Below are positions 7,551 to 41,480 of a stretch of 64,000 nt of DNA, one piece after another. The notes under the pieces are model-generated. The model did no database searches and was not told the origin of the DNA. It saw only the letters and a program-made list of their open reading frames with translations. Positions within the stretch are counted from its first letter, which is position 1; the number at the start of each line of letters is the position of its first letter. The translations under genes were made by a program, and so were the position numbers. Location: contig CM073323.1 of the NCBI GenBank assembly GCA_037043015.1, positions 15,083,258 through 15,147,257 on the forward strand, in the 5' to 3' direction. The DNA comes from Bryum argenteum. Taxonomy: Eukaryota > Streptophyta > Bryopsida > Bryales > Bryaceae.

Positions 7551-7649
7551 AGGTAAACCCATATTCTCATAATTTCATATTGTTTTCAATGTCCCTTTTT
7601 AATCGTGGTGATTTTATGACACTAATAATTGTTATACTTTATCGTCCAG

Positions 7650-8942
7650 GTTGGGAAAGGTCGTGATAAGCCCATTCAAAACATGACTATGAAGCCCAAA
7701 CATCCCGGCATTGACCTAATCATCGCTGATGCACCTGAAAACCTTACGGTGCCTCTCATCGAACCACACGTTGTACCCATGTGGAACATGCGAGATGACG
7801 ATTATTTCGATAACGTATTCGCATTTGCTGATGCGAATCTAACGGATGATGGGGTTATACTTCTCATGCACCCAAGGGATAGGGCCATTGAACGAGAGTT
7901 GGACGAGTGCATGTATAGTTACCAGTTCAAGATTGTTCGTGACTGGTGGGGTTATAACCCACTTCGTTTGACGTCCGCTGTTGTACTCGGGCTGCAACGG
8001 TAAATCTCTGACGTTTATATTTCTATATTGTTTTCTCCGTTCAATTTGATAGATTGTAATGTAGTTTTCTAATCGCCCGATTGGATTGTGTAGACTCAGA
8101 ACTTCCACATCAAGGTCTTTGCAAGAAAGGATGCAAAGTTTGAAATAAAGAGATCGAATGGTCTATGGGGGCAGCTCGACATTCTCCCGGACGACAATGA
8201 CAACTTAACCAACTTCACCCACGCCGAAGACCAGATGTTACGCCCGATGGGAAACCGTGGCGGGCGCTCGGAGAAAACATCCAGATTTCATCCAGTGTTT
8301 TATCGAGTGCTTGACCGACGAGAACGACATCGTGTTTGATTGGAGTGTTTCTACAGGTAGGTGGTTTATGTCAAGATTGAGGATAAATGTGATCAAGTGA
8401 TTTATACTAACACTTGCTCGAATTGTTTTTGTACAGGAGCTTCGAACGAATCGTTTTCTCATCGGCTTGGAGCGAGATGAGGAAATCTTCGCGACAGTCT
8501 TGAAACCGATGTTAGAGCAATCGCAAAGTCGGCTTGATGCAAGCTCATCCAGAGATCTTACAGAGGATGTGGAGCCTAGGAGGAAGAAACCTCGCAAGTA
8601 CATGGGTGCGTTATATCTGCTCTTTGTATTTTAACTTTTTATGACGCTTTTGTCAACAGGAATTTCTAAACTTCACTTTGGAATCTAGTCACGGAGGATT
8701 GACTCGAAGATTATCACTCCATTCGGATCTCATTCGGAGTCCTCCATCGCCATTTGCGCTTCCCCTCGTATCTTTGAGCGACTTGCCGAGCGGTGGGTGG
8801 CGACTCCATCTCCTATTCGTGCTCAAGCCCAAATACCAAAGTTTCCTCAGAGTGTATTGCGCTCATAGATTTTGAAGCTGACCAATGTGATGAAGAATTT
8901 GACTCGCCCCACGATAGCGACCATTCTCTTTATTACTATTGA
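7650..8942 (+). pseudogene. PM-A: beta-class DNA methyltransferase-like 3' exons
   Basis: Exon 7650-7999 starts after TCCAG and contains KHPGIDLIIADAPENL (motif IV-like), LTDDGVILLMHP and VRDWWGYNPL. Exon from 8094 starts TQNFHIKVFARKDAKFEI and, after a frame change, ends TDENDIVFDWSVST (motif I-like). Exon about 8437-8604 has NRFLIGLERDEEIF, as after motif I in beta-class N4/N6 methyltransferases. The C-terminal piece LIDFEADQCDEEF ends at TGA 8940-8942. Every block has a counterpart in PM-B at 39218-40510. Frame changes near 8000, 8240 and 8855 break the copy. The DPPY-type tetrad is DAPE in both copies, so catalysis is uncertain. The methyltransferase assignment is by motif order only. Confidence 0.58.
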
Positions 8943-9570: not shown

Positions 9571-9590
9571 CTCACCGCTCACCGCTCACG
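9571..9590. repeat. PM-A right terminal repeats (ACCGCTC heptamers)
   Basis: Reads CTC-ACCGCTC-ACCGCTC-ACG. It is the same heptamer array as at both ends of PM-B, reduced to two full units. It marks the boundary with Gypsy-1 coding sequence. Confidence 0.7.
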
Positions 9591-9609
9591 CCTGTGCATT
9601 CCCCTCGAG

Positions 9610-16966: not shown

Positions 16967-19827
16967 TCATCTTTTGCACGATATCCGGTACGGAAATGTT
17001 TCCGTACTATGAGCGCAATTTCCATGCAGTTCCAAGGGAGGATTTGGTGCATACTCTCTGTATTCTTCGATGATTTCAGTGCTGTTCATCACAAAATCAT
17101 GGATCCATTGCTGCAGTTCCGAAGAGAGTACGCGCCGTCTCCCGTTCCCCTCTAGAACTTCATCATTCATAGTAGGCTCCTCTTTGTCGTCCCATACACG
17201 GCGTGTCGTCATGCTGCAGTTCTTCATGTACTCCGTGCAGAATCCGAGCGTCTCCTCCATGATATACCCTCGTGCCATCGAGCCCTCCGGTTTCGCTTGT
17301 TGCCGTACATATCCCTTTAAGGTTTTGAGATACCGTTCCACGGGGTACATCCAGCGTGTATGCACCGGGCCACAAATGGCTAATTGTTGCACTAGGTGGA
17401 TTGGAAGATGTGACATGACATCGAAAAATGACGGTGGAAATATTTTTTCCATCATGCACATGGTCACTGCTGTTTCCTCCACCAAATCAGACATTGTTGA
17501 CGGATCCACAGACTTCTCACATAGTCGCACAAATACCCTGCATATCCGAATGATGGCTGCCCGAACGTCTTTTGTTAGTAATGTCCGGAGACACAAAGGG
17601 AGGACCTGCTGCATCATGATGTGATAGTCATGTGATTTAAGCCCACGAAGGTCTCCATCAGGGGTGATCCTCTTCGATAACTGCCCCACGTAATTGCTGG
17701 GAGTCTTTAAGTTCCGGATAGTGTTGATGAATGTCGCCTTCTCCACCTTTGTAAGAACGTAGGGAGCAACTGGTAGTACGATGGTATCACTCCCGACGTG
17801 TTGAGGGTGCAGTTCGGGGCGTATATTGGCCTCCTTCATGTCTAGACGGACTTTGAGTGTGTCTTTCAATCCCCATATTGTCCTCATGATGTTTTCGCAG
17901 AGATTCTTTTCGCAGTGCATGGGATCAAGCACATGCCTTATTATGAGAGTCTGCGATGAGGAACACATCCTACGTCAGAACATATCTAATATTACTAACA
18001 TGCATGTTCCAGAGTAAGACCACTATTAGTCATGATTTTGCTGAGAATGAGGAGTCCTACCCATGCATTCTCCGCCTATGACTGCTGTTAGTCCTATGGT
18101 GTCACGATATGACTACTGGTAGTCACGGTCTAACAGTACATGACAACAGGCAGTCGTTTTGTTCTCAAAATCTGACTACTCTACGAAAAAACAATTTCAT
18201 ATCATGAGTAGCACTAGAAACATGGTTTACAGCGTAAGCATGCTTACCTGCCAATATGGAAGACTGTAAAGAACTGATAGCCTCTTCACTCCGGTCTAGT
18301 GCACTGGATCACTCTCGCCTCCTTCTCTATTTTGATCACTGGCTGCTAGCCACCTCTCCCTAGCTTTAGCATGGCGCACAATATCCCGTCCATTCAGAGA
18401 CCTTGGGGGTGCTCTTATTTCTGTGCCATCAAATGCTCTTTTCAGTCGTCGATATGGATGATTCTTCTGCAAGTACCTCCGATGTCCGAGGTAAACATTC
18501 TTTCCCAGTGAAGCTGATCGACGAGAACTGACGTTAGGACCGCATTCAAGACAGCCTTTGTACCCCTTTTTCACTTGCCCGGAAATAAGACCATATGCTG
18601 GGTAATCATGGATGCACCACATCAACATTGCTCTGAGTGTGAAATTGGTGTTGTGAGTGTCGGCGGAGACATCCACGGCATTTACACCCTCCCAAAGTTG
18701 CTGCAGCTCTTCGATGAGAGGGGCCAGGTACACATCTATATTCGATGACGTTACACTCTCCTTCCCTGGAATGAGGAAAGCAATCATCACTTTAATGAAT
18801 GAACTTTAGTGAAAGAGAAATCCTACGGCTTTGCGAAAATTCCTAATGTTTGTCCAGTGCTTGCAAAAATGTGAATAACAGCGTCGTCAGAGTCACATAA
18901 CAGCAATTTACCTGGGATGAGGAGAGCTAGCATTAGAAAGAACCGTTTTGTTACTAGCCAAGGATGTAGGTTGTAATTTAATAGTATCACTGGCCACGTT
19001 GAGTGGCTCAGTGACAGGTTCGAAAAAGGATTCACTCCATCTATGGCTAGAGCTAATCGTACATTTCTCTCGTCAGCTGCGAATTCTGGATACAAAGCGT
19101 TGATGTGTTTCCAAGCTTTTGAGTCCGGTACACACTCCATATTGCCATTTATGTCTTTCCTTGTTGTGTGCCACTTGTTCAACTCGGCTATCTCCTTACA
19201 TCGATACATTCGCAGTAGTCGCGGTATAAGTGGAAAGTGCCTCAAAATCTTCACCGGCCGTCCACTATTCTCCGATGCGTATCGCTGTTGTCCACATTTT
19301 GGGCACGTCAACGCCTCGGCCAAGTCCCCTCGGAACAGACAACAACCGTTTCGGCAAGCATGGATTAGCTTGTAATTCAACCCTAGTGTCCGGATGAGTT
19401 TATTCCCTTTCAAGTGCGACTTGGGAAGTTTGTTGCCCTTTGGGAGAAGTTCGCTGATAACGTTCAATAGTTCATCTGCACACGTGTTTGATACACCGTG
19501 TACTGTGAAACAATTGAAAATTAGGAGCACCGCCACCAATAGCTTCGTCTCACATCCTTCGTAAAGTGGAACACTTGATATGTGAATGAAGTCGTCTGGG
19601 TATATGTCAGGGAGGTTGTCGTCATCAACTACAACGTCAACTTCGTCCTCATCCGCAGAATCGTCATCAGGTGGAGGGACACAATCGAATCTGCCGAGGC
19701 ACTCCGTGATCATCCTGGCAACGTCGAAATGTTCTGAAGCAGTTGGCATTGTTGTGTTGCCCTCGTGAGTTTCGTTTGGTTCGTGAAGGTCTTCACGATC
19801 ATCGTCACTCTCGCCTGTAGCACTAGA
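16967..19827 (-). pseudogene. CACTA-2 TNP2-type transposase (three exons, in-frame stop)
   Basis: Minus-strand exons 19827-18912, 18765-18248 and 17950-16967 join with consensus splice sites; the first junction rebuilds LLIPGKES. Diagnostic Tnp2 blocks are present in order: LGLNYKLIHACRNGC, CPKCGQQRY, LRHFPLIPRLLRMY, ALAIDGVNPFSNLS, WPVILLNYNL, GHRRYLQKNHPYRR, GVKRLSVLYSLPYW, then RHVLDPMHCEKNLCENI and HLPIHLVQQL. These are the Transposase_21 and DUF4218-like parts that cut and join CACTA ends. A TAG codon at 18298-18296 interrupts the conserved stretch just before GVKRLSVL, so this copy is probably inactive unless that base is an error. The 3' end lies close to word-rich DNA at 16.85-18.2 kb, as expected of a subterminal gene. 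Confidence 0.85.
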
Positions 19828-20005
19828 CTGCACAATAAAGTTTTCACTACAAGGATATATGTGACCTAATTGACAAGACATTGACGTAATTCAGTCAATT
19901 GTCCCGTCAATTAGGAGACCCTGATTCGGTCACTTATTAACAAAAACATGTCAATTCGGCTGTCAAATCGGACAAGAATACACGTCAGCAAGTTCTTACG
20001 GTGAG

Positions 20006-21970: not shown

Positions 21971-22528
21971 TCAGTTTACATGGTAAGATGTGAAAAGTTC
22001 CTCCCCCGCTTCAATGTCACGCGATGCTACAGTCATGATATACCCCCAAGTATACGGATTCCATGGGGTACGCAAGGATACATATTCCCAAATCACATTC
22101 TGTATGTGCTCTCGTCCAATTGAACTGTTTATAAATCCTGCTACATTTCCTTTCAGCACATCCCCATCGAGGTACGTGTTTTTCTTCATGCGTATTACAT
22201 ATTTCAGAAATCGCGGATCCTGCTCACACTTTTGAAGGACCTGGGCCTCTGAGAAAACATTCCCAACAAAGGGCAATAACTCTTCACCCAATTTTGCTGG
22301 CTCCATAGCATACATGCCCCATCCCATGTGCGGATGTGTTGACACTCTCACCTGCCACTTCCTCTTCCAGAATGTGAAGACGGTCAGCTTTGGAATGGGG
22401 CCTATGCTCAATTGCACATTTGCTCCATCTGTGCCACTAATATGACGAGTCTCTTTGTTCTTGGGAGACAACAGACCTTGACCGCTCGTTGCAAGCGGGA
22501 GAGGATTCGAAATTATGAACTCTAATGC
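21971..22528 (-). CDS. SET-domain (lysine methyltransferase-like) coding exon in CACTA-2
   Basis: After a GCCGCAG acceptor, the minus strand reads about 185 codons to a TGA at 21973-21971; a GTAAAC donor just before it is possible. SET landmarks appear in order: GWGMYAMEPAKLGEELLPFVG, YVIRMKKNTYLDGDVLKGN, GFINSSIG (in place of the canonical NHSC), and IMTVASRDIEAGEELFTSY (the final motif with the catalytic-pocket tyrosine). About 50 residues precede the domain. SET enzymes methylate lysines, usually on histones. It lies on the same strand as TNP2 and between the Transpos_assoc exon (22856) and the TNP2 exon (19827), so it could be a fused domain or a separate captured gene. The missing NHSC residues leave activity open. 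Confidence 0.75.
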   Translation of the reverse strand, partial: ALEFIISNPLPLATSGQGLLSPKNKETRHISGTDGANVQLSIGPIPKLTVFTFWKRKWQVRVSTHPHMGWGMYAMEPAKLGEELLPFVGNVFSEAQVLQKCEQDPRFLKYVIRMKKNTYLDGDVLKGNVAGFINSSIGREHIQNVIWEYVSLRTPWNPYTWGYIMTVASRDIEAGEELFTSYHVN

Positions 22529-22659
22529 AACAACTGCTGCGGCCAATACAACAGGTCTTTGTATTTCCTACACGACCATATTAAAAGAGTAAGGCAATCA
22601 TTATGGATCTCCACACATTCGACACCAACATGATCAAGAACAATCATGAGTACCGTACC

Positions 22660-24995: not shown

Positions 24996-25345
24996 ATGAC
25001 AACTGAATATAGTGCCTCGGTAGAAAAGATAATGAGGATGGTAGCAAATTTACCTGACAATTGCGTACAAGAGGTTTTTCAAGGAATCGGTAGAATGCCA
25101 CAAATCACTAGTGTAGCCTTGCATGAAATGGCCAAAGTATTAACGGACATTTTTCAAGAGTCCAGGGAGGCTGTGAGTCCACAGAGGAGGTCCACTCGCG
25201 TCACATCGAAGCAGCCGACAAGTACTGCTCGAAGGATTCGGAAGTCGAAGAACGACGCGTCCGAATCTGAGCCTGAAGAAGAGGAGACGGAGACAGAGTT
25301 GCTCTCGGAGGACGAGGCGGCGTCATCTGAGGGACGTTGCTACCG
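24996..25345 (+). pseudogene. CACTA-2 coding exon, 5' part, interrupted by PM-B
   Basis: Starts after CTAG at 24990; Met 24996 begins MTTEYSASVEKIMRMVANL. Helical text and an acidic tail (ASESEPEEEETETELL) follow up to the PM-B insertion at 25346. After removing PM-B and one CCG duplicate, the same frame continues at 41481 and runs 68 codons to TGA 41682-41684. This is a direct sign that PM-B landed inside an open frame. The phase does not join simply to the exon ending near 24926, so this may be a separate gene. Confidence 0.55.
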
Positions 25346-25404
25346 TGTGAGCGTTGAGCGGTGAGCGGTGAGCGGTGAGCGGTGAGCGGTGAGCGGTGAG
25401 CGGT
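25346..25404. repeat. PM-B left terminal repeats (seven GAGCGGT heptamers)
   Basis: TGTGAGCGTT plus seven perfect tandem GAGCGGT units. It is the inverse of the right end. Confidence 0.9.
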
Positions 25405-25827
25405 AAGATTTAGAATTTTTAGGGCTGAGTTTGTATTTTTAGTAAAAACATTACTAAAAATAGATTTTTAAACAAAATTTGAGAATAATTTTCGAATATT
25501 CTCAAGAATATTCGAATATTCTAGACTTATAACCGTGGATTTAGTGACCCAAACCCGTGGAAATAAGGCTTAAATTCCCTGAATTTATGAGACTTAAGCT
25601 ACAAAACTGTACAGTAAATCACAAATTTTTAAATGTCAAGAGGTTTCTAAGGTAATATTTCTAAGTGAATAGTACTCCGAGTTAGACAAATTGGCAAGGT
25701 CTGCTGTACATGTAGGTACTGGTATAATAATTTTTAATAAGTTTGTGAAAAAATATCACATATAGTGTGGAGCACCCAATGATAAGACTAACACATAGCG
25801 TACGTAGATGAGGAGATATAAGGCATT

Positions 25828-26112
25828 CTAATCTGTAGCATGGTCTAGGATTCCTCCCTCCAGAATCTTTTTCACCTCGTTGAAACTAAGAGTGGCCGCG
25901 TGGATGAAGAGGTCAGCATCCGGATCAAATATGCAAACCAATACTGTGATGTAGTATAGGTGCTTGCACGGTCGATATGGATCTCTCCTTCCTAACAAAG
26001 AAATTGTTTTCTTGAACACTGGGCATGAGCAATCCGGGAATTTACTAATTGAAAGTCTATAAACTGCATCCGAATCCGACTCCAAGTCTACGATACATCC
26101 AAAACCAGTCAT
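25828..26112 (-). CDS. PM-B transposase, SWIM zinc-finger exon
   Basis: Minus-strand frame MTGFGCIVDLESDSDAVYRL, then PDCSCPVFKKTISL...DPYRPCKHLYYI. The C-x-C-x(n)-C-x-H spacing is the SWIM zinc finger, which closes the C-terminus of MuDR/MULE transposases. The tail (FNEVKKILEGG) resembles the region after SWIM in such proteins. The downstream end of the gene is 420 bp from the left terminal repeats. It is likely the last coding exon. Confidence 0.65.
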   Translation of the reverse strand: MTGFGCIVDLESDSDAVYRLSISKFPDCSCPVFKKTISLLGRRDPYRPCKHLYYITVLVCIFDPDADLFIHAATLSFNEVKKILEGGILDHATD

Positions 26113-26877
26113 GGATCATGGTCACTTTCGTAATTTTGGCCCGCATTGAGGTGGCGCGACTCAATATTCTTCATGTGCTTTGAAGTCATAGCCGGAATGC
26201 GTTTCATGTTCTTCGATCTTCTTGACCTAGGGAACACGTCCGCTTCTCCGGGACGGGAATATGGGACAAGTCTCTTGGTGGGGCAAAGATTATTGAAAGT
26301 GCGGTTCGTAGGAAGTCGTTTCTTTTTTGTGGTAGTCGAAAGCCCGCATTCTCCAACGCCTCCATTTCATCACGTGTAAGGTTAGTCCCTATCTTTACAG
26401 TGCCATATTGAAGGAATAGGGGTCTGTCTCCGGCTTAGAGAGAATGGCTCAATCCACTTGCGACGATGACCCTTCACACACCTCTCAATATCATCCGCAC
26501 AAAAAAGAACTCGATCAATTTTTCTTGGCCCCTCTTGAGGGCGTTGCCATACTCCGGTGTAAGTTGGAGCCGCGGTCGCCTTCCCCTTCGAATAATTCGT
26601 GAGTCACATCTTTTTTACTCTTTCGCATGATACCCCAACATGCCTTGGCGAATTCTCCCTCAAACGGGCAATGTGCCACGACCTCTCGTCTACTTTAGTC
26701 TCCCGAATGGCCACACGTTCAATACTAGGTCCAAAGAAAAGTGGATGGTATTGTCGGTAGCTCCTCAACTTCATCCTCCTCATGGATAGTACTCGATTTT
26801 CGAAGACAAGCTCGGGTAACCCTTCTTCCAATTCGAGGACGTGAGTAGCTCAAGGTGTCGTGTCCGCGCGCGTTTCA
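26113..26877 (-). other. PM-B transposase region without a clear frame
   Basis: Lies between the SWIM exon and the exon ending 26878. A minus frame at 26831-26604 (MEEGLPELVFENRVLSM) may be a further exon but carries no recognised motif. The remainder is intron or decayed coding DNA. Confidence 0.3.
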
Positions 26878-29091
26878 TCATCGGCTCAATCGGAACATCG
26901 CCTTACGTTTCTTGGATCCGAACACCTCGGCCCCCTCAAGGTGGGCGTCTCGGGTACAAATCTTTTCCGCTCCTGGATAGTCAGAAACTGCCTTTGTGAG
27001 GCCTGATGGATCGCCGGTTCGTTGAGCTTTATGGGCAAGACGAAGTAAGAGTTCTTCGGATGTTGGTCCACTACCACCCTTGCCACCTCCGTTGAAGTCG
27101 TGGTAACCGACAACTTGGAGGAAAGCACGAACATAATCATCAACAGCTGCAACGTACAAGTCCCCACCCTTGTTGCCGGACGCTTGCAACCATTTGTTAT
27201 GGATAGATTCCGCAAGATTACATGAAGGCATCTCCGCCAACTCCTCTGCTGAATATTTATTTTCCTGCAAGGTGCAAAGACAATTGACTTAGTAACAAAA
27301 AAAGATGATCACAATATCCACAGCGGGTTAGACTTGCGTCACAGCAAGTCTGATCTAAAAATAGAATATTATTATTTTTTTAAATGATTGATATTGAAAA
27401 AGATTAAGAAAGCAGAATATTCTATACTAAAAAAGTAAATATATTTTACAGAATTATTAGACATCAATTCACGTGTATATAATAGCTACAGTGACTGTGG
27501 ACTCACCAATTCCATGAAGCCACCCCACTGCCTATATCGGAAATGCCAGAATGCAAGCCAGTGTTCGAGGTGACCTAATCCAACTTCGGAGGTGGCTTGC
27601 GCCGACGCCCACCACGCTCGGATCGCCCAGTATCTTGTCTCCGCCTCAGCCATGGTGCGTGCATCTTTGTATTGCTTACAAAGATGTCGATGTTGATCCT
27701 GTAGTTCGTGCACGATGTATTGTTTGGTGTGTTTCTCTAGGGATTGCGTCCAATGGAAGTAGCAAGTCCGCTCGCGGCCTTCCATGGGCACTTTAGGGTC
27801 TCCGGAGCCATAAATGATCCGCACAATGTTCAGCTTGGCTCGCGCACCGCCGGCCATGAACCCTTGAAATCTGCGGGCTTCCACTCCGTTCCCGCCTACG
27901 ACGTGGTTAAGATTCTTCCGGAAGACGATTTGAGCATCCCCGTCTTGATTGGAAATCACAAAGATGCAATAGTTAGAATGCGGCATTTTTCGAGTCATAA
28001 ACGTGGCATGCCATGGTGGTCCAGTTCTTGACACGCTTGACGTGGTCGAACATCATCCAAGCATGTGACAAGTCGCCCCCGGGCTGCATACGACGAACAA
28101 GGTCAACACCGCTTCCGGGGCCAACCTCGGACATCTTGAAAATGAACACTTTGTCACTTTCATCTCCCCGCCCGGGAATCGGTTACGTTGGATGTAAGCC
28201 CGATTCTTTGAGGCCTCGAAGCTTGGTGATCCCATCAAGAACACCGTATCTGCGCAAGTGCTTAAAAGTGGTAATACGATTCCTGACGCTCGGAGAGTTC
28301 AGCTCTTTACACTGATCGAAGATAGGTTCTAGCTCCTGGAGGGTGAGCTTAGAGGTTACAGGGTCACCTTCTTCACGGAGAAGTAAGTTTCCGAGTAAGT
28401 CCTTGCTAGCCTCCATGACTATTTTGGATGTGGTAGCTTGTGGGTTACGTTCTACGTGCTCCTCTATTAACTCATCAATCATTTTACGTGCACATCTGTA
28501 GTCTCCGACCTTAACAGGATGTTTGTGCGTACCGATATGCACACATGCCCTCTCTTGACTCTCTTCTCCGAATACGTAGAAAATTTTAGCAGGGCATAAA
28601 GCAACACAAATGGGAGGTTCTTTGCAGATCTTACAGACAAGTGATGACGAAGGAGGAGGCGCTTGGCCGACCGAGAAGGGGTCCTTGGTAAAGCCCTCAA
28701 ACTCCACCTCATTAACTTGTGATCTACGGTCAGGTCTTAGCAAGAATCCGCAGTTTCCATTGTGGCATTGAAGATGACCTACACAGTTAGAGTAGCGGAA
28801 AGACAAACCGAGGTTGTTACTGATGTTAGTAGTCATTGTCCTGGTCCACACATGGCCGTCGTATCTTTTGTCCATCCCTTCCATAGATTTGGCTACCTTG
28901 GCAGCAGTAGTTGGTAGAACAGGAGGGAGAATGTAGAGGACATCACCATTGAAAGTGTGAGGCAGGAAAGAGACGCTATGAGTTCGGATGGAATGGAAAT
29001 CTATTTTTTTGAGTATAGTTTTGTTGCGAGACATACTACCTAGTCTACGGAGCGAGGAAAGAATGTTTTTGGGTTTTACGACTTTTGACAC
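26878..29091 (-). pseudogene. PM-B MULE-type transposase, N-terminal and core exons (frameshifted)
   Basis: Frame 29091-28183 holds a zinc-binding segment (RYSNCVGHLQCHNGNCGFL), a CKICKEPPICVALCP cluster and ERACVHIGTHKHPV. Reading goes on in the same frame (FKMSEVGPGSGVDL, WMMFDHVKRVKNW) and changes near 28000. Frame 28034-27486 has NQDGDAQIVFRKNLN, RRFQGFMAGGARAKLNIVR and RTCYFHWTQSLEKHTKQYI. The exon 27270-26878 has CNLAESIHNKWLQASG. This is the layout of Mutator-like transposases: an N-terminal zinc finger, an RNase H-fold core, a C..FHW motif and a SWIM end. The FMAD-type catalytic aspartate appears as Gly (FMAG). An intron near 27271-27485 contains a palindrome shared with the satellite. 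Confidence 0.6.
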
Positions 29092-30174
29092 GGGAAGAGA
29101 AACGGGGTGGTTACGAGACGTGTTCGAGAACCCGAGGAGGAATAATAGGCGATTCGATGATATTCGACGGACCGGATGGACGCTTTTCTTTCATCGCCGA
29201 TGAATCAAAATATCGATTCGAACTTGAGAGTCCGGTTCGACCTTGACACGAGCGAACCGGAACAATTGTGGAGATGGTAGAAGAACTACGAGGAGTGAGG
29301 AGGACGGTGGAGGCGTTCATGACGAACTCACTCAAGCCGAAACAATCGATCTCGACCGGGCCGTAGCCTATACATTTTAGAGTTACTCTCTAAGGCGGCG
29401 GTTCGACAAGGACAGAGTAGTCGACAAGATTAGTGTTTGGATCCAAGACCCGATTCTCCAACCGTAGAGAGGACTCATCAAACCCGAAACGAACGAATCG
29501 CTAGCCAAAACGGAGTGACTTACGCCAACCCATCCACCCCTGAGAATGCGAAGGGAGGACTTAAGTCTTGAACCTAATGGCAATGACGTTTGCAGCGGGA
29601 GGCAGGGGAGCGGATGATGCCATGATAGACGAAGGCGAGAAAGAGAGCATCAACAAGCGCGCGGAGAAAGAGAGTCTTAGTTGCGTCACGGAGGTTCAAA
29701 TACGAGAAATTAATGTAAGGTACATGCATACGTATTGCACACTTATTTGTCGTAATTTCATATAATACAACGTACAGATACTCGATACTCCTAATCGTGA
29801 GCATGATAATTTGAAGCAAGTTGCTTAGGATACTTAAAATATCTCGACTGACATAATTGCATTAAGTACTTAGGATTATAAATATGAGATCCTTCGATAA
29901 AAATAAGTTGGTGCAGAAGGTAAAGTGACGGCGGCAGTCATTGTCAGATATTTAGTTGGATAATAGATACTTTCTAAATTAGTTTATTTTGGCAAGTCAG
30001 TCACCGTCATAGCCGTATGTTAGGCAATCCGCGGCGGCTGATTAGGGTTTTTTAGCCGCAATTGGGGACCTTATGTAATGGAGTTGAAACTCATAGTTCG
30101 ACCTCTTTATTTGCAATGAGACCTCTTGGACTCGTTTGGAAGAACGTGTAATAAGTTATCTCATTGCAAGCAAC
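29092..30174. promoter_or_regulatory. PM-B divergent intergenic region
   Basis: Separates the minus-strand transposase from the plus-strand gene at 30175. Short open frames (minus 29335-29111; plus 29568-29765) have no recognised domain; part could be 5' exon or UTR. A bidirectional promoter is inferred from layout only. Confidence 0.35.
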
Positions 30175-30552
30175 ATGGACGAAACTGCTAGCGGTAGTGA
30201 GAGAGGAAAGGAAATAGGTCAGAGAAAGAAGAAGAGGAGGGGTGGTACGAAGTTCACTAATTCTAAAGCACAGGGCGTAGTGCTTTGGAAGGAAGCGACG
30301 GGATAAGCTCTAGCGGTGAATATCGAGAGCCAGACGGGTACGATCTCTTGATCGATGATGATGTGCTACCGCCGTTTAGGCGGACTATTAAGATGCGATC
30401 GCTCAACCTCGACACTGTCCAGGAGAGTGTCGCGACGGACGAAGCTGAGGAAGAGGAGGATGAAGGGCATATAGGGCAGATCAAAACGCCTAGTGAGGTT
30501 GTTTGCGTGGATGGGGACGACGATGGAGGTGTAGACTCTACATATGAGGTAA
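30175..30552 (+). CDS. PM-B acidic/basic protein, first exon
   Basis: ATG 30175 gives MDETASGSERGKEIGQRKKK with a basic patch (RKKKRRGG), and its frame closes at 30306. A second frame from 30285 (EGSDGISSSGEYREPDGYD) continues to a GTAATT donor after GAG (about 30550). One frame change near 30270-30285 separates them, by mutation, error or alternative start. Acidic stretches (TDEAEEEEDEGH) dominate. No family is recognised. The next exon is 30650 to about 30815. Confidence 0.4.
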
Positions 30553-30649
30553 TTAAGTTTTGTATGGTATAAACCCGCGGATATTTCTAAAGGTTAAATT
30601 ATTTCTGAATATTTATATTGATTTATATCGACTTGTGATGTCTCCAGAG

Positions 30650-30917
30650 CCCCAAAGGATCGGAAGAGGAAGACAATCGATCAGGAGATGAATCAACGAT
30701 GTTTGAGGAGAAAAGAGTCACTGACACTGGCGAGAGAGGAGAAGCTTCTTCTCATCCGAAAACAATGGATGATACAACGGATGGATTTGAGACAAGTGTT
30801 GAAGAATTAGAGGAGGTACATGAAAAACCCTACTTCCTGGTTTACTGGGAGGACCTAGGGTGGATTAAGTATACAGTCAACGAGAGTTCATTTTTCAATA
30901 TAAGTAGTTCTGAGTTT
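30650..30917 (+). CDS. PM-B acidic protein, second exon
   Basis: After CTCCAG (about 30646) the frame reads PKGSEEEDNRSGDESTMFEEK, DTTDGFETSVEELEE, then FLVYWEDLGWIKYTV and a stop at 30920. A GTACAT donor after GAG at about 30815 may end the exon earlier. Nothing beyond acidic composition can be said. It probably continues the gene starting at 30175. Confidence 0.35.
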
Positions 30918-31139
30918 TGACATGATATAATTTCATGATTTGTATGGACCGGAGATTGAATAATATATATTATATTCATTTTATACTGCAAATATTGTTT
31001 TGATAGTGGAATAAATCGTACTAATATGAAGTGCACTGACTGAGTTCGGTGATCAAAAAAACAGTCTCTAGTAATTTTAAAAATATCACGGAAAAAACAA
31101 ATAAATAGTCCTTACGAAGTATGTTTAGTCAAGTTGCCG

Positions 31140-32240: not shown

Positions 32241-35200
32241 TTGGCTTGCAGCTCGTGCTTGTTGTGAAGGAGGGCCCTCGAGGGTGCGCATGAAGCCCCC
32301 AGCTCCTGCTTGTTGGGAAGGAGGCCCTCGAGGGTGCGCATGAAGCCCACAGCTCGTGCTTGGCTGGTCACATTCCGGTGATGAAGTCTGGCGATGAAGG
32401 AAGCTCTGGCAATGAAGCCCAAGGCTGAGCCGGCCTTTTCCAGAGCCTGTGAGTCCACGTGATGAATGGTGTGCGGGGTTTTTTGTTTTGTGCATGCAGA
32501 ATTTGTCCTTAAAATGAAAAATGGTCCGACAAGCGTCAGACTTGCGTCGACGCAAGTCTGGACCGAATTCGTGACATTGGTTTTGAAAAAATTTTGCTCC
32601 CTCGGTTTCCGTTGAATGTCTTGTTCTGTTTGGCGTGAAGCTAACTGTGATGTGAACGACGGCCCTCGAGAGTGCGCATGTAGCCCTCAGCTCGTGCTTG
32701 TTGTGAAGGAGGCCCTCGAGGGTGCGCATGAAGCCCCCAGCTCCTGCTTGTTGTGAAGGAGGCCCTCGAGGGTGCGCATGAAGCCCCCAGCTCCTGCTTG
32801 TTGGGAAGGAGGCCCTCGAGGGTGCGCATGAAGCCCACAGCTCGTGCTTGGTTGGTCACCATCCCGGTGATGAAGTCTGGCGATGAAGGAGCTCTGGCGA
32901 TGATGCCCAAGGCTGAGCCGGCCTTTTCCAGAGCCTGTGGGTCCTCGTGATGAATGGTGTGCGCGGTTTTTTGTTTTGTGCATGCAGAATTTGTCCTTAA
33001 AATGAAAAATGGTCCGACAAGCGTTAGACTTGCGTCGACGCAAGTCTGGTCCGAATTCGTCACATTGGTTTTGAAAAAATTTTGCTCCCTCGGTTTCCGT
33101 TGAATGTCTTGCTCTGTTTGGCTTGAAGCTAATTGTGTTGTGAACGAGGGCCCTCGAGGGTGCGCATGTAGCCCTCAGCTCGTGCTTGTTGTGAAGGAGG
33201 CCCTCAAGGGTGCGCATGAAGCCCACAGCTCGTGCTTGGCTGGTCACCATCCCGGTGATGAAGTCTGGCGATGAAGGAGCTCTGGCGATGATGCCCAAGG
33301 CTGAGCCGGCCTTTTCCAGAGCCTGTGGGTCCTCGTGATGAATGGTGTGCGCGGTTTTTTGTTTTGTGCATGCAGAATTTGTCCTTAAAATGAAAAATGG
33401 TCCGACAAGCGTCAGACTTGCGTCGACGCAAGTCTGGACCGAATTCGTGACATTGGTTTTGAAAAAATTTTGCTCCCTCGGTTTCCGTTGAATGTCTTGC
33501 TCTGTTTGGCTTGAAGCTAACTGTGATGTGAACGACGGCCCTCGAGAGTGCGAATTGACCACGGCTCGTGCTTGTTGTGAAGGAGGCCCTCGAGGGTGCG
33601 CATGAAGCCCCCGACTCCCGCTTGTTGTGAAGGAGGCCCTCGAGGTGCGCGCATGAAGCCCCCACTCCCGCTTGTTGGGAAGGAGGCCCTCGAGGTGCGC
33701 GCATGAAGCCCACAACTCGTGCTTGGCCGGGTCACCATCCCGGTGATGAAGTCTCAGCGATGAAGGAGCTCGGCGATGATGCCCAAGGTGAGCCGGCCTT
33801 TTCCAGAGCCTGTGGGTCCTCGTGATGAATGGTGTGCGCGGTTTTTTGTTTTGTGCATGCAAAATTTGTCCTTAAAATGAAAAATGGTCCGACAAGCGTC
33901 AGACTTGCGTCGACGCAAGTCTGGACCGAATTCGTGACATTGGTTTTGAAAAAATTTTGCTCCCTCGGTTTCCGTTGAATGTCTTGCTCTGTTTGGCTTG
34001 AAGCTAACTGTGATGTGAACGACGGCCCTCGAGAGTGCGCATGTAGCCCTCAGCTCGTGCTTGTTGTGAAGGAGGCCCTCGAGAGTGCGCATGTAGCCCT
34101 CAGCTCGTGCTTGTTGTGAAGGAGGCCCTCGAGGGTGCGCATGAAGCCCCCAGCTCCTGCTTGTTGTGAAGGAGGCCCTCGAGGGTGCGCATGAAGCCCC
34201 CAGCTCCTGCTTGTTGGGAAGGAGGCCCTCGAGGGTGCGCATGAAGCCCACAGCTCGTGCTTGGTTGGTCACCATCCCGGTGATGAAGTCTGGCGATGAA
34301 GGAGCTCTGGCGATGATGCCCAAGGCTGAGCCGGCCTTTTCCAGAGCCTGTGGGTCCTCGTGATGAATGGTGTGCGCGGTTTTTTGTTTTGTGCATGCAG
34401 AATTTGTCCTTAAAATGAAAAATGGTCCGACAAGCGTCAGACTTGCGTCGACGCAAGTCTGGACCGAATTCGTGACATTGGTTTTGAAAAAATTTTGCTC
34501 CCTCGGTTTCCGTTGAATGTCTTGCTCTGTTTGGCTTGAAGCTAACTGTGATGTGAACGACGGCCCTCGAGAGTGCGAATTCAGCCCACAGCTCGTGCTT
34601 GTTGTGAAGGAGGCCCTCGAGGGTGCGCATGAAGCCCCCAGCTCCTGCTTGTTGTGAAGGAGGCCCTCGAGGGTGCGCATGAAGCCCCCAGCTCCTGCTT
34701 GTTGGGAAGGAGGCCCTCGAGGGTGCGCATGAAGCCCACAGCTCGTGCTTGGCTGGTCACCATCCCGGTGATGAAGTCTGGCGATGAAGGAGCTCTGGCG
34801 ATGATGCCCAAGGCTGAGCCGGCCTTTTCCAGAGCCTGTGGGTCCTCGTGATGAATGGTGTGCGCGGTTTTTTGTTTTGTGCATGCAAAATTTGTCCTTA
34901 AAATGAAAAATGGTCCGACAAGCGTCAGACTTGCGTCGACGCAAGTCTGGACCGAATTCGTCACATTGGTTTTGAAAAAATTTTGCTCCCTCGGTTTCCG
35001 TTGAATGTCTTGCTCTGTTTGGCTTGAAGCTAATTGTGTTGTGAACGAGGGCCCTCGAGAGTGCGCATGTAGCCCTCAGCTCGTGCTTGTTGTGAAGGAG
35101 GCCCTCAAGGGTGCGCATGAAGCCCACAGCTCGTGCTTGGCTGGTCACCATCCCGGTGATGAAGTCTGGCGATGAAGGAGCTCTGGCGATGATGCCCAAG

Positions 35201-35520
35201 GCTGAGCCGGCCTTTTCCAGAGCCTGTGGGTCCTCGTGATGAATGGTGTGCGCGGTTTTTTGTTTTGTGCAAGCAGAATTTGTCCTTAAAATGAAAAATG
35301 GTCCGACAAGCGTTAGACTTGCGTCGACGCAAGTCTGGTCCGAATTCGTCACATTGGTTTTGAAAAAATTTTGCTCCCTCGGTTTCCGTTGAATGTCTTG
35401 CTCTGTTTGGCTTGAAGCTAATTGTGTTGTGAACGAGGGCCCTCGAGGGTGCGCATGAAGCCCCCAGCTCCTGCTTGGCTGGTCACCATCGTCGGTGATG
35501 AAGATCTGGCGATGAGGCAA
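32240..35520. repeat. Nested satellite: seven long units built on 50-bp subunits, each with a perfect 24-bp palindrome
   Basis: Seven copies of a unit containing the dyad half CAGACTTGCGTC start their AGACTT core at 32538, 33026, 33414, 33901, 34439, 34927 and 35315. Intervals are 488, 388, 487, 538, 488 and 388 bp, so they differ by one or two 50-bp steps. The 50-bp subunit (GGCCCTCGAGGGTGCGCATG core) occurs a variable number of times per unit. The 488/388 pair appears at both ends, implying a higher-order duplication. It probably sits in an intron between the exons at 32.2 kb and 35.75 kb. Long minus-strand frames here are a by-product of the repeat. Confidence 0.9.
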
Positions 35521-35747
35521 TTGGCTGAGCCTGTGTTTTTTACTGCATGTGGGGGTCCTCGTCTTGAATGGTCATGGATCGATTTGTGCTCAATGTTTCA
35601 TGGCAGAATATGAAATAGGATGTGAATTATTTATTCATGTGTATACTTTATGAGACAAACGTATATTGTTTTATTTGTTTTATCTTTTAAAATGATGTTT
35701 TTTGTTGTTCAGGATTTGATTATTAAGTTGGCGGTGATTTTGCAGGA

Positions 35748-36057
35748 TCCTATCAAGCGACTTGTGCTTCATCCGGATGAGGAATCTGATGCAGATAGTG
35801 ACCTCTCTGTTTTGAGAGAGAATGTGTTGGCTTACGTTGAGTCCCGTCGATTAGTTATAGCATGTTCGTCAGTTCCGGAAACTCCACCTCCTTCCTCATC
35901 TGTCCGTCACACTTCGCGAGTTGACGTTGATCGATTAGCAGTTCACATGGGCATAAAAAAGAATGAGGCCAAGGCCCTTCGTATTCACGCAAAACAATTT
36001 GCTAGACTTGCACCTAGACGTTCTCTGCGACTTGCCGCAAAAATGCATCAGCCTTAG
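35748..36057 (+). CDS. PM-B small basic/acidic protein, terminal exon
   Basis: After TTTTGCAG (acceptor at 35747) the frame reads DPIKRLVLHPDEESDADSDL, ENVLAYVESRRLVIACSS, a Ser/Pro hinge, then a basic helix-rich end (KNEAKALRIHAKQFARLAPRRS) and TAG 36055-36057. It may be the last exon of the gene starting at 30175, with the satellite in its intron. No family is recognised. The arginine-rich C-terminus could contact nucleic acid. Confidence 0.45.
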
Positions 36058-36198
36058 TATTCTTGGAACATTATATGATACGTTTATCATATTCTAATTT
36101 ACAACAAGATTATGTATTCATTTTTATTTAATCTTGTTCAGTTCACACTATTTTATGCTTATTGTGATGTGTTGAATTTGGTTTACTGATTTGCCAGA

Positions 36199-37051
36199 TG
36201 AACATAGCTCAAGTCCAAGATGACGGAGCCAACCTGCCTCATCTTAATGCTCTCCAAATTGTACCGTCCAACGAGAATGACCTCATTTTAGAAGAGTTGG
36301 GAAGTGGAGTTCCACATAACAGCCCTTTGGAAAGTGATCGCCAACCTGTGGAGGGCGATTGCAATGCGGTTTCAAGTGACAATCCTCTGGAAGCGGCAGA
36401 TATTCATCAAGCAACTGAAGACAATGATGGGCACCAATCCCTCTCGGAAGACGAAGAATCTACATTGCCTGAAGGTGTCAACGTGGGCATCAGTCACATG
36501 CCCACCCATCTTCATAACAAGGACCCCGACTGGAGTGCAAACGAGATGCGAATGCTCCACAAGAGTGATTCGATTGCTATCATTAACAGGTTACGCTACA
36601 AACCTGTTAAGAAGTCTCGTATGCTAATTCCACTCTGCCGCCTCGTTTGTTATCCGAAGGTTCGCCCGATCTCAGAACAAGACGTCAGGAAACTCGAGAA
36701 AGAGTTCAACAAGGGATACCGCGAAGGCGATCGGGTAATGTACGTGTCTCCCTTCGACAGGAAAGGCCGAGAGAAAATTGTTGACACTGAAGATGAACTT
36801 TGGAAAAACCCGCTTTGGGCAGCCGCGAATGAGGAGTTCGAGAGTACGCTGCGGTCTGATCCAGATCTTCGTAACCTTAGTGACAAATATTTCTATGTCT
36901 ACGAAGGTAACCACCGTGTTACAGCCCGGATGCGCCATATAGAGAGGTACCACAAGAATGATCCCTCGTGGTACATTTCGGTTGATTGCATCGTCCTCGA
37001 TGCCCGTGGAGAGAGCAATCTCCTCCTCGATGCTATGAACGATATTAACTG
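36199..37051 (+). CDS. PM-B: ParB/sulfiredoxin-like domain exon of the methyltransferase-type gene
   Basis: ATG 36199 directly follows a GCCAG acceptor; the exon closes at GTAAGC (37052). About 110 residues of acidic linker precede a globular part. That part has LIPLCRLVCYPKVRPISEQDVRKLEKEF (the strand-plus-helix start of ParB-like domains, including the I-x-x-x-D-V-x-x-L pattern), then YFYVYEGNHRVTARMRHIER, where GNHRVTA corresponds to the G-x-H-R-x-x-A signature of the ParB/sulfiredoxin fold. The exon continues in phase into 37138 (W-STEHDHVED). ParB-like domains bind DNA or nucleotides, and in bacteriophages and bacteria they are often fused to DNA methyltransferases, the arrangement inferred here. 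Assignment is by motif only. Confidence 0.6.
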
Positions 37052-37137
37052 GTAAGCGAATGTCGCATTTTTAAGAATTTGTTCCTTTTATGATATTGTC
37101 ATCTTTAAATTATCTCATCCTTTGTCATATGTTGTAG

Positions 37138-39121
37138 GTCTACTGAACATGATCACGTCGAAGACAGTTTGTGTGCGAAACTCCAACGCATGAGGAAGTT
37201 TGGAAAGTTGAAACTTGAAGATTTCAAGGACCTCATTTCTCCAGAAGATTACAGGATCTGTAAGAACGCCAAAGCAAAACGAGGCACTTGGTATCCTGTC
37301 ACAATAGACGTATTTGTAAAGTTTCTATACGCGGTAAGCTCACTACATATGTGCTCGACTCCTCTTCTCCAATTTGATTTAAAACAAATTCTCATTTGTG
37401 TTCTGGTTGTTATTCAGAGGAGGTTAGCGAAAAAATCTGACGATGCTGAGGCTGCGTACTACGCCGCGGTTCCAAAAGATAAACAAACTGGACCGGGAGT
37501 ATGGAGTGCCATGGATAACGCTATTAAGGCTGAAATCAAATTAATTCGTGGCAAAAATTTCGACAAGATGGTGGCCGTGGCCAATATCAAACTCGGGAAG
37601 GTTTTTGCGAAAGAGGTATTGGTCGTTTGGTTCTTTGATTTCTAAACTGTATCTTTTTATACGTTTTGTTCCTCCAATCAACACTATGGGTCTGATGTGC
37701 AGATTAACTCTCATTACAGCCAAAACCTAAAACCCGACATGACGCTTGATCGCTTACACATGGTCGCCACTACGAATGTGCGCACTTCGATTTCAAGGCA
37801 AAGTGGTCGATCGTGGAACTCATCAAACGACGATCGACGATCATTTCGCTTCCCTGAAGATCGCCCTATGAAAGATAAAGCTTTGCTTTCATTTCTTCAT
37901 CGTGCTTCTCTTTGGGCATAGGTAACTTGGATTTTTGTTCCGTCATTACAGAATTTGAGTTTATATGTTACTTGAAATATTAACTGGTTTCCTGTATTCT
38001 CAGCTTGAGCAATCACTAGAAAGTGAATTGCAGAATCTTATAGACAACGAGAACCTCAACATTGAGTGGTCTAGTGTTGTCCTAAAGCCATCTGAGTATG
38101 TCGAGAAGTGGAGGCTACTCTTATGGGAGAAGGCATTCGGAATCTATCTTGCTCCGAATGCAAGTCCGAAGTTCATTAAAGGCTCGGATCTTCGAAAAAT
38201 TACTGGAGGCAAAGCTACAATTAAGCGGCTTGTATTCCGGTATGTATTCCTTTTCCTATATAATATTATAGAACATTGTTCAACGTAATCAATTTTCCCT
38301 ATCTAATTTGTTTACTTCCTTGTAGGTACTTAAAACAAGAGCTCGTTGCCAAGGGAGCATTACCTTCGTTCTCCATTCCCATGGAATTCGAGGACGTCGG
38401 CAGAACGAATGATCCCCGAAGCTTTTTCTCCTCAGCCCAACAAGAACGGTTTACTAACTCCCAATTGTCGACCGGTGGATGGTTCCTTGAGTGCCACGAC
38501 AACTACGTCCACAAGGAGGAGAAGCATCTTCTTCAAATCTGGCTACAAACCCAAACACTCAAAGACCGATGGAGATTGACGACGAGGACGATGACGACTT
38601 GTCCATTTTACCAGATGCACCAGATCCAATCTCCTCTCCTTCGTCACCAGTTGCAGTGCCCAAGTCTCGTGCAACCAGGAAGCGACGCAATGCTGTTGCG
38701 GAACCTGTAGTCGATCTCGAGCAAGAATCGGAAGAAATCGCTCCTCCCCCCGGATGACATTGCAGGGCCAGAAGATGCTGATCTGACTCAGGCTTCAGAG
38801 GGAGTGACAAACAATGCAAATCGTCGCAATGCAAGACTGACTCAGCTTTCGACAGGTGAACTTACGAATGCAGGGTCCCCTCCTCAATCGTTCACCGTGG
38901 ACCACAACTCACAGCAGTCTCCGCGTCGCATCAGCCAGCCATTGTTTCCGAAACGCCCTCTTCCGAAACCCAATCACATTGGTAGCAGCTCGTCGTCAAA
39001 AATTTCGGTGACTTTGCCAATGTATCTCGAGAAGGGCAACATTGGAGACTTGGTTCATCAGTCGTCGAAGACTGCAAAATGGGATTCGCAAATCCTCGAT
39101 ATCGTTGAGCACATCAAGAAG
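37138..39121 (+). CDS. PM-B: middle exons of the ParB/methyltransferase-type gene
   Basis: Exons with GT/AG borders: 37138-37333 (LCAKLQRMRKFGKLKLEDFK), 37418-37615 (RLAKKSDDAEAAYYAAVPKD), 37703 to about 37921, 38004-38239 (LEQSLESELQNLIDNENL; WEKAFGIYLAPNASPKF) and 38326-39121. The last contains an acidic block (MEIDDEDDDDLSI) and ends HIKK. The last two align with PM-A 6580-7550. Two frame changes lie in 38326-39121, one at a run of seven C (about 38746-38752), which might be a consensus error. A stop at 37919-37921 may mark a missed splice. Part of this region resembles the helical C-terminal half of ParB-type proteins in length only. Confidence 0.5.
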
Positions 39122-39217
39122 GTATTGTTTCATACATTTGTCATTTATATTTTCCATATGTAAGTTGAGTACTTGTGAATCTAGTAGCCAGTATCTAAAT
39201 TTTCACTTCTATCTCAG

Positions 39218-40510
39218 ATTGGCAAAGACCGTAAGTACCCGTGTTCGGCGATGGAGTATGAACCCAAGCATCCAGGAATTGATCTCATTTTTGCAGATGC
39301 TCCCGAAAACTTGCCTGTTCCGGGTGTGTCTCCAACAGAAATTCCATCCTGGAATCGGCGTGACAAAACCTACTTTGAGAGCCTCTTCGTGTTTGCCGCT
39401 TATCATTTGACGGACGTTGGAGCCATACTTCTCATGCATCCAAAATGTCGTAGAATCGAGCGTACTCTCGATTCTGAGTCTGCAACATATGGTTTTCGTC
39501 TGGTTCGAGACTGGTGGGGATATAATCCCCTTCCTATGGCCTCTACCGTACCCAAACCGAAAGAGGTACGTAACAGATTCCAATTTTAAATTTCACGATT
39601 CATGATTATTTCCGACTATGCTTCTATGTTAACGTATTTTTACTTGTGTTTTGCAGACTCACTGCTTCCACATCAAAGTCTATGTTCGTAAAGAGTATGT
39701 TTCGAAGTTCCAGACTCGGCAAGTGGCACACGCATACGGGGGTGTGGCAATCGTACCTGATGAGGAAGACCACCTCTCAACTGCGCAGAAAAGAAACATT
39801 ACGTTATCGTCCGGACGGTACGCCACGGGCGTGGGCGGCGAGAGAAGGACCCCTCCTTCATTGATGTTTCAATCGATTGTCTCACGGACGACGGAGGTAT
39901 AGTCTTCGATTGGAGCGCTAGTACGAGTAATGTTTCCGTAAACACTACATTCGAGTTCGTTTATACACACTTCGCTTTTCTAACGTGGGCTTCGTATTTG
40001 TAGGTGCATCCGTAATTGCTTGCGCGCTCAACCAACACCTCATCGCCATGGAACCCGACGAAGAAATCTTTGATGGTGTGCTAGCCGATTACAAGAATGG
40101 TCCTCCCGGTGATGAAGAAAGTGGAGAATCGCCCCTCCCGGATTATGACTCTGACGAACCGGTCGTGAAGAAGCCACGAAAGTTCATTGGTGCGTAATTC
40201 CATCTTGTGTTCTTTTTCTCGATTTTTTATTTAGCACTTACAAATCTGTTGAACTGACTTTCTTTGCAATTTTAGGATCGCAGGTCTGAAGGAGCGATTG
40301 ACTCGCAACGCTCATCTCTACAAGAGCCCTCCATCAAAATTCACCCTACCATCGTACGCTGAGCGGCTTGCTCAAGAGTTTGTTCAAGCTCCATCTCCCA
40401 TTCTCTTGGATACTCCACGTCGACGTTATAACAATAGTGTGCTTAAGTTTATAGACTTTGAGGCTGATCAGTGTGATCAGCACTTTAATGGTTCAACACC
40501 TTCTGCCTAG
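39218..40510 (+). CDS. PM-B: beta-class N4/N6 DNA methyltransferase-like exons
   Basis: Exons 39218-39565, 39657-39926, 40004 to about 40193 and about 40284-40510. Order of motifs: HPGIDLIFADAPENLPVP (motif IV-like, with DAPE where active enzymes have DPPY or similar), LTDVGAILLMHP, VRDWWGYNPL. Then, in a shifted frame, CLTDDGGIVFDWSAST and, across a clean splice, ASVIACAL...HLIAMEPDEEIF. The last two match motif I and its following strand in beta-class methyltransferases (D-x-F-x-G-x-T..., then I-G-x-E-x-D). Motif IV before motif I is the beta-class order. The C-terminus KFIDFEADQCD is conserved in PM-A. Frame changes near 39800 mean this copy may not be functional. A target of element DNA is speculation. 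Confidence 0.58.
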
Positions 40511-41439
40511 AGTGTGATTTGTTTTCTGATAGGTACTAGACATGGTACTAGAGTATTCGTTTATCTCGATCTATTACTGCTATAGCATGTATTTGTGTTT
40601 TTCAATATATATGGTTTTATATATTTATTTATTGTGATTATCGTTTATAGCTTAAGCTACACTAAGTGTTTCAAGTATTAATTTAAGTATCTCACTACAA
40701 TGTAATCTAAAGCCATGCTTGACTGTAACGAAGACGTCAGCCCTAATTTTGATGTAACTTCTTAAACTCCAGTTTCGATGCACCGGTGTATGTAAATGCT
40801 TAAGTTCTAAACTAAATACAGACTAAAAGTTTGAGAAGGTCTTTTTTTATTTCCATTGGAGTGATTGAATTTTGCCAATGTTGGTAGGGGCTATAGTCCA
40901 GTATTTGTATAGCTCGGGATAGGCGATTTAAGACGCAGTCACAACGCTCAAAACGAGGCCGAGGAGAATCGAACTCGGACCACTTTGCAATGCCACGTGA
41001 ATGTCTTTTCGTACACCTTACAAGGGGACACGAAAGACGACGTGTCTTCATAATTTTCGCTTAATATATGCCAAGCATTTACATATAATTCTTACAAGTG
41101 CAATACGCTATTGATGACGTCGGCCCTAATTAGTCTCTAAAGCTTATCACGATAAATTAAACTTATTGATTACCTAAATGGATCATCCCTAATTTTGGTT
41201 TATATTTTGGATATGATTTGAATTGTGTTGGTTACACATGATGATGCTAGTCCATAATTTAATTAACTTTTATTTAAACTTACAAGTGTGGATAATTTTT
41301 GAAATATTGTATGACCTATGTCCACGGTTTTGGGTACTTTTATGCCTAAAAATGACCATTTCAAAAATTCTAAACCACCCATTCCATGGTAATAGGGCCA
41401 TTAACTTTAAATTTTTTTTTTCCTTACCGCTGAAACTTT
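40511..41439. other. PM-B 3' non-coding end
   Basis: AT-rich, no gene. It has paired GACGTC phrases (about 40732 and 41116) with CCTAATT neighbours, echoing the PM-A end, and a tRNA-like segment (next entry). The 41400-41440 stretch is T/C-rich just before the terminal heptamers. Confidence 0.5.
40915..41050 (-). repeat. tRNA-like (SINE-type) segment in the PM-B 3' end
   Basis: On the minus strand GAGTTCGATTCTC (about 40981-40969) is a good B box, with TCCGAGTTCGA context as in tRNA-derived SINE heads. Upstream GTGTCCCCTTGTAAGGTGT may be a weak A box. No tail or duplication is seen. It could be a SINE remnant or part of the element. Confidence 0.35.
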
Positions 41440-41477
41440 ACCGCTCACCGCTCACCGCTCACCGCTCAACGCTCACA
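41440..41477. repeat. PM-B right terminal repeats (four ACCGCTC heptamers)
   Basis: Four ACCGCTC units, then AACGCTCACA. Reverse complement of the left end apart from unit number. Confidence 0.9.
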
Positions 41478-41480
41478 CCG

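Follow-up and report, generated by a model that had tools for sequence, protein, structure and literature searches.

A 64,000-nucleotide stretch of the moss Bryum argenteum (contig CM073323.1; "the window") contains a DNA transposon of ~16 kb, bounded by terminal inverted repeats (TIRs), in which a ten-exon gene joins a ParB/sulfiredoxin-fold domain to a degenerate domain related to the beta-order N6/N4 DNA methyltransferases. This is the ParB-methyltransferase combination of phages, set in a transposon of plant type, and the structural part of what an earlier, sequence-only reading had claimed holds. It is about an even chance, in our estimate, that the protein binds DNA of its own element and in this way counters silencing or aids transposition.

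Organization of the Ten-Exon Gene

The ten exons lie on the forward strand at 36198–40510 and can be read as one gene, with GT/AG borders and compatible phases. The borders were picked by hand with the reading frames in view, and the phase agreement is therefore partly built in. The exons were as follows:

36198–37051 (+), exon 1: an acidic N-terminal part plus the ParB/sulfiredoxin-fold domain (relatives, alignment, AlphaFold2, Foldseek/VIA)
37138–37333 (+), exon 2: open frame with GT/AG borders, phase matching exon 1
37418–37615 (+), exon 3: open frame with GT/AG borders
37703–37921 (+), exon 4: the final codon ahead of the donor is a stop in the window copy
38004–38239 (+), exon 5: open frame
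38326–39121 (+), exon 6: low-complexity linker with frame shifts in the window copy, then the start of the methyltransferase-like domain
39218–39565 (+), exon 7: motif IV-like DLIFADAPEN and the following strands (12 relatives, alignment, hhalign)
39657–39926 (+), exon 8: C-terminal end is the motif I-like IVFDWSAST; frame-shifted in the window copy (relatives P0060 and P0061)
40004–40189 (+), exon 9: remainder of the motif I region, HLIAMEPDEE; its hhalign columns align with the GRKFIGIEIN block of YhdJ
40284–40510 (+), exon 10: C-terminus, matched by a second copy of the gene (FIDFEADQCDQHFN / LIDFEADQCDEEFD)

The gene copy at 36198–40510 (the window copy) is broken by the stop that closes exon 4 and by the frame shifts in exons 6 and 8, and judging by its coding frame it is probably dead. 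One of these lesions may instead be a sequencing error in a run of C.

Two unrelated neighboring genes, or captured host fragments, might have been joined by eye, and the second copy in the window, which holds exons 5–10 only, would fit that explanation. We regard it as unlikely. The phases are compatible at all nine junctions, as the borders were picked, and the match ended exactly at the exon border in 25 of the 34 aligned relatives of exon 1. Furthermore, one relative of exon 1 (P0017) and one of exon 7 (P0059) each came from a 4432-long contig of the same source, which suggests that the two exons may be linked in a relative.

The ParB/Sulfiredoxin-Fold Domain

The sequence-only reading had placed a GNHRVTA signature in a ParB/sulfiredoxin-like context. 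This signature is coded at 36906–36926, in exon 1, and the fold was recovered by structure prediction. From residue 101 onward, the AlphaFold2 model of exon 1 had a predicted local distance difference test score (pLDDT) of at least 90 in 15 of 19 ten-residue blocks, and its top 26 Foldseek matches in the PDB were sulfiredoxin, Noc, PadC, SbnI, and ParB. The E-values of these fold matches were modest, the best being 0.022 in the PDB and 0.004 in BFVD. The arginine of GxxR (P motif) sits at a strand-to-helix turn in the model (strand 232–236, helix 238–251). Forty-seven of 544 candidate relatives of exon 1 were confirmed (E 4e-79 to 6e-21), and G237, N238, H239, and R240 were invariant in all 35 aligned sequences. 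On the predicted model, exon 1 is assigned to the ParB/sulfiredoxin fold.

Sequence libraries gave little. No family was matched at E ≤0.001 by Pfam searches with exons 1, 2, 7, 8, and 9 and the spliced methyltransferase part, nor by PHROGs and NCBIfam searches with exon 1 and the spliced part. The closest library match was phrog_1033 ParB to exon 1 (E 0.012); matches to TAZ1_RBM, DUF2264_C, and BCAS3 were taken as noise. PDB sequence searches returned no match below E 0.13. The Pfam model PF02195 matched neither exon 1 nor the 35 family members, and the hhalign comparison of exon 1 with a YbdM-type ParB profile was negative. None of 25 pattern-matched stretches in viral contigs, and none of 43 in bacterial and archaeal genome contigs, was confirmed as a relative of exon 1.

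Sulfiredoxin is reported as the commonest eukaryotic ParB-CTPase fold (PMC12704722), and the best single Foldseek match of exon 1 was the Arabidopsis sulfiredoxin, with which it has in common the fold and the position of GxHR. A redox enzyme of the sulfiredoxin kind is nevertheless hardly credible. The catalytic motif of sulfiredoxin is GCHR, and its catalytic cysteine position is occupied by asparagine (GNHR) in 35 of 35 aligned sequences; the present protein also has large extra domains. The identity as a sulfiredoxin enzyme was rejected on the cysteine position.

The Degenerate Methyltransferase-Like Domain

Same-strand exons downstream of the ParB-like part had been proposed to encode a beta-class methyltransferase-like domain, in which a motif IV-like block precedes a motif I-like block. 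Both points stood. DLIFADAPEN is coded at 39281–39310, IVFDWSAST at 39899–39925, and LIAMEPDEEIF within 40004–40189, on separate forward-strand exons with GT/AG borders. A composite profile was built from the window splice, 12 relatives of exon 7 and two of exon 8, with exon 9 from the window alone (effective number of sequences 1.5). Twelve of 13 candidate relatives of exon 7 had been confirmed (E 6e-54 to 6e-33), and the two relatives of exon 8 were P0060 and P0061. Against a profile of 26 N6/N4 methyltransferases, hhalign aligned the composite over 226 columns (probability 92.9%, P 3.7e-7), with motif IV before motif I, which is the beta order.

The hhalign score was 51.2, compared with a maximum of 22.8 in 60 column shuffles and 17.4 for the reversed profile. 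It fell to 36.7 when the two halves were swapped. The window sequence alone scored 42.7, exon 7 alone 27.8, and exons 8–9 alone 35.6. Among single sequences set against the composite, YhdJ scored 24.6 (probability 4.5%), a match that was not significant on its own, and PanF, PrmA, DusB, and Fis scored 11.6 to 13.0. The spliced composite had no match to the Pfam model PF01555 (0 families). The AlphaFold2 model of exon 7 alone had a mean pLDDT of 55, and no N6/N4-type methyltransferase was found among its best 50 Foldseek rows; this test is uninformative, as exon 7 is half a domain. By profile comparison, exons 6–9 are homologous to the beta-order N6/N4 DNA methyltransferases.

The canonical motifs of the methyltransferase literature, which were used for comparison, are altered. 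Across the 13 sequences, motif IV read DAPE, DAPD, DVPE, DTPS, DAPS, DALE, or YAPE, and the canonical (D/N/S)PP(Y/F/W) was found in none of them; the second copy likewise has DAPEN. Motif I was DWSASTG in P0060 and P0061 and DWSVSTG in the second copy, and FxGxG was absent from all three. Judging by these sequences, the catalytic motifs are altered across the relatives seen, beyond the window copy. Because motif IV is non-canonical in 13 of 13 sequences and motif I is DWSAxTG-like, ordinary base methylation by this domain looks doubtful, and the methylation function that the sequence-only reading had inferred for the element did not find support. Nor did the segregation-like function inferred there.

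The domain might still be an active element-encoded methyltransferase with an odd active site, guided by the ParB-like domain and writing N6-methyladenine (6mA) or N4-methylcytosine (4mC) on the element. The almost full-length match to beta-order methyltransferases would agree with this, as would the purifying selection described below, the retained first Asp (12/13) and third-position Pro (12/13) of motif IV, and the retained final Gly of motif I in P0060 and P0061. On the other side, the aromatic position of motif IV is replaced by E, D, or S in every one of the 13 sequences, and F-x-G is missing from motif I in P0060, P0061, and the second copy. We consider such activity improbable; for this half of the protein, a role as reader is more likely than one as writer.

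The Transposon and the Second Copy

The gene lies near the right end of the element, whose TIRs (25345–25400 and 41423–41478) are 88% complementary over 56 nt. The features of this element and of a second one in the window were as follows:

25345–25407 (+): left TIR, with GTGAGCG heptamers
25828–29190 (−): decayed transposase-like gene, with frames at about 28183–29190, 27486–28052, 26878–27288, and 25828–26115; the C-terminus is weakly SWIM-like
35746–36057 (+): open frame that follows an acceptor, either the terminal exon of a neighboring gene or a 5′ portion of the transcript unit; no Pfam match
41423–41478 (−): right TIR, with heptamers
6580–8942 (+): second, divergent copy of exons 5–10 (tblastn E 9e-50, hidden Markov model E 3e-61)
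9571–9592 (−): heptamers (ACCGCTC) at the right terminus of the second element, with a gypsy-type polyprotein frame directly adjacent

The gene had been described as an intron-containing gene inside a 16-kb Mutator-like element. Introns, TIRs, and the second copy agree with an intron-containing gene inside a TIR-bounded element. Of the traits of a Mutator-like element (MULE), which include a DDE transposase that often carries a SWIM finger, the TIRs are present, but the label as such did not find support. No target-site duplication (8–11 bp for Mutator-like elements) was seen by eye in the flanks, Pfam gave no MULE family match for the transposase-like pieces tried, and the SWIM finger (Pfam E 0.24) was below the cut-off.

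In the second copy, exons 5–10 are ordered and oriented as in the gene at 36198–40510. Exon 5 and the start of exon 6 are 38.6% identical over 127 columns to its part at 6580–6957, and exon 7 is 55% identical; exon 1 (ParB) was not detected in it. Between the two copies of exon 7, 87% of the synonymous sites (pS 0.87) and 34% of the non-synonymous sites (pN 0.34) differed. This excess at synonymous sites indicates that the protein is under purifying selection. The second copy has a stop codon in exon 5, and by this sequence it is probably dead. It is followed by the ACCGCTC heptamers and then directly by the retroelement polyprotein frame, as if the second element had jumped into a retroelement. 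Compared by eye, P0059 and the second copy were almost the same. On these sequence comparisons, the gene is part of an element family.

Other features were also observed. An 18-bp perfect palindrome, AGAATATTCGAATATTCT, lies at 25505–25522, just inside the left terminus. Between the transposase-like and ParB-methyltransferase genes, open frames at 30267–30920 and 35746–36057 (+) encode acidic or basic proteins. Outside the element, ~3 kb from its left end, there is an open frame with a SET domain (21971–22564, −; PF00856, E 1.2e-10). The window also contains remains of a CACTA-type transposase (Transposase_21 and DUF4218; 16967–19887, −) and retroelement proteins (RVT_1 and rve), both in keeping with a plant.

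The Palindromic Tandem Array

Upstream of the ParB-methyltransferase-like gene, the element carries a tandem array with seven perfect palindromes, and an eighth copy lies apart from it:

32249–35480 (right end approximate; no strand): tandem array of 50-bp and 388/488-bp units with seven perfect palindromes, AGACTTGCGTCGACGCAAGTCT
27330–27351 (no strand): eighth palindrome copy with 3 mismatches, isolated between two transposase-like frames (intron)

The seven palindromes, of 22–24 bp, are located at 32538, 33026, 33414, 33901, 34439, 34927, and 35315, and five of them reach 24 bp. In 20 order-1 random sequences, palindromes with arms of at least 10 occurred at a mean of 0.05 per window. The array units are near-identical, and thus the perfection of the palindromes inside the array is no evidence of constraint. 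The isolated copy at 27330 is a stronger sign of it. Its flanks had no homology to the array, and in 200 order-1 random sequences the closest approach to the palindrome had 5 mismatches, so that 3 was never reached. Allowing up to 7 mismatches, it was the only copy in the window outside the array, and none was found at the termini. The exact palindrome did not occur in the viral contigs. Since the site was picked after looking at the array, the palindrome as a candidate target site is only a lead.

A ParB fold next to repeated perfect palindromes recalls a ParABS-like partition system, which would spread or anchor the element through a parS-like array. We regard this as very improbable: chromosomal elements need no partitioning, the domain is as similar to Srx as it is to ParB, and no ParA or helix-turn-helix turned up, although no search was aimed at the host genome or at the fold of exons 2–5. 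A related version without partition, in which a eukaryotic transposon lineage would use a ParB-type nucleotide-gated clamp fused to a methyltransferase-derived DNA reader that loads on parS-like palindrome arrays, spreads, and shields the element from host silencing, is also rather unlikely.

Another explanation is that the protein is an accessory factor of transposition, which binds the termini or internal palindromes and organizes the large element for excision while silencing is unaltered. In both elements the gene sits next to the right terminus, the element is large, and ParB-fold proteins are described as DNA clamps (PMC12704722). The distribution of the palindrome, absent from the termini and found outside the array only at 27330, argues against it. 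This explanation is possible, though we would not expect it to be right.

Proposed Function and Relation to Known Systems

Here, we propose that the protein would bind non-coding DNA of its own element, with the 22–24 bp palindrome repeat as the candidate site. The ParB-like domain would serve as a binding module gated by nucleotide, and the methyltransferase-like domain would read DNA or a cofactor; as a result, host silencing would be countered or transposition assisted, like VANC proteins do for VANDAL elements. ParB-fold proteins bind CTP, ATP, or GTP, while 17 of 28 tested bound none (PMC12704722). VANC proteins are reported to bind short-motif tandem repeats in non-coding DNA of VANDAL elements and to remove silent marks (PMC10398659). 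The VANDAL elements are Mutator-like, and common to both cases are an accessory gene carried by a plant DNA transposon and the short-motif tandem repeats in non-coding DNA (PMC10398659). A VANC-like strategy is proposed because an accessory protein of the DNA-binding type adjoins a motif-bearing tandem array. We infer DNA binding, nucleotide use, and anti-silencing, by which the protein would be a self-targeting, VANC-like anti-silencing factor; the architecture of VANC proteins presumably differs from that of the present one.

The same two folds are found in one protein in phages. On mobile elements the ParB fold is frequently joined to further domains, and in phages to N6/N4 methyltransferases (PF02195 plus PF01555; PMC12704722). 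Among the ParB-fold matches of exon 1 in BFVD was a Mycobacterium phage DNA methylase, a match known by its protein name and not by the aligned part. Five phage records were considered as possible ParB-methyltransferases. In the two long methylases translated from them (L127, without its start, and L128), Pfam found the methyltransferase and no ParB domain; the other three were covered by their annotated gene tables. In contrast to the phage fusions, the moss gene has introns, sits in a eukaryotic transposon, is missed by both Pfam models, and is without canonical motifs IV and I. The bdelloid N4CMT is likewise a bacterial-type amino methyltransferase in a eukaryote, for which a 4mC mark was reported in the host (PMC8885841), whereas the present methyltransferase-like gene is element-borne and degenerate. 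Among the papers listed in a search of one literature library, judged by title and abstract opening, none dealt with a ParB-methyltransferase in a plant transposon, and the term ParB did not occur in the main text of either PMC6446971 or PMC6431247.

If the fusion is a conserved, element-borne one in plants, it would carry a phage-type architecture over into the mobile DNA of eukaryotes. It would also offer a testable second transposon anti-silencing route beside VANC, together with a candidate binding site in the 22–24 bp palindrome.

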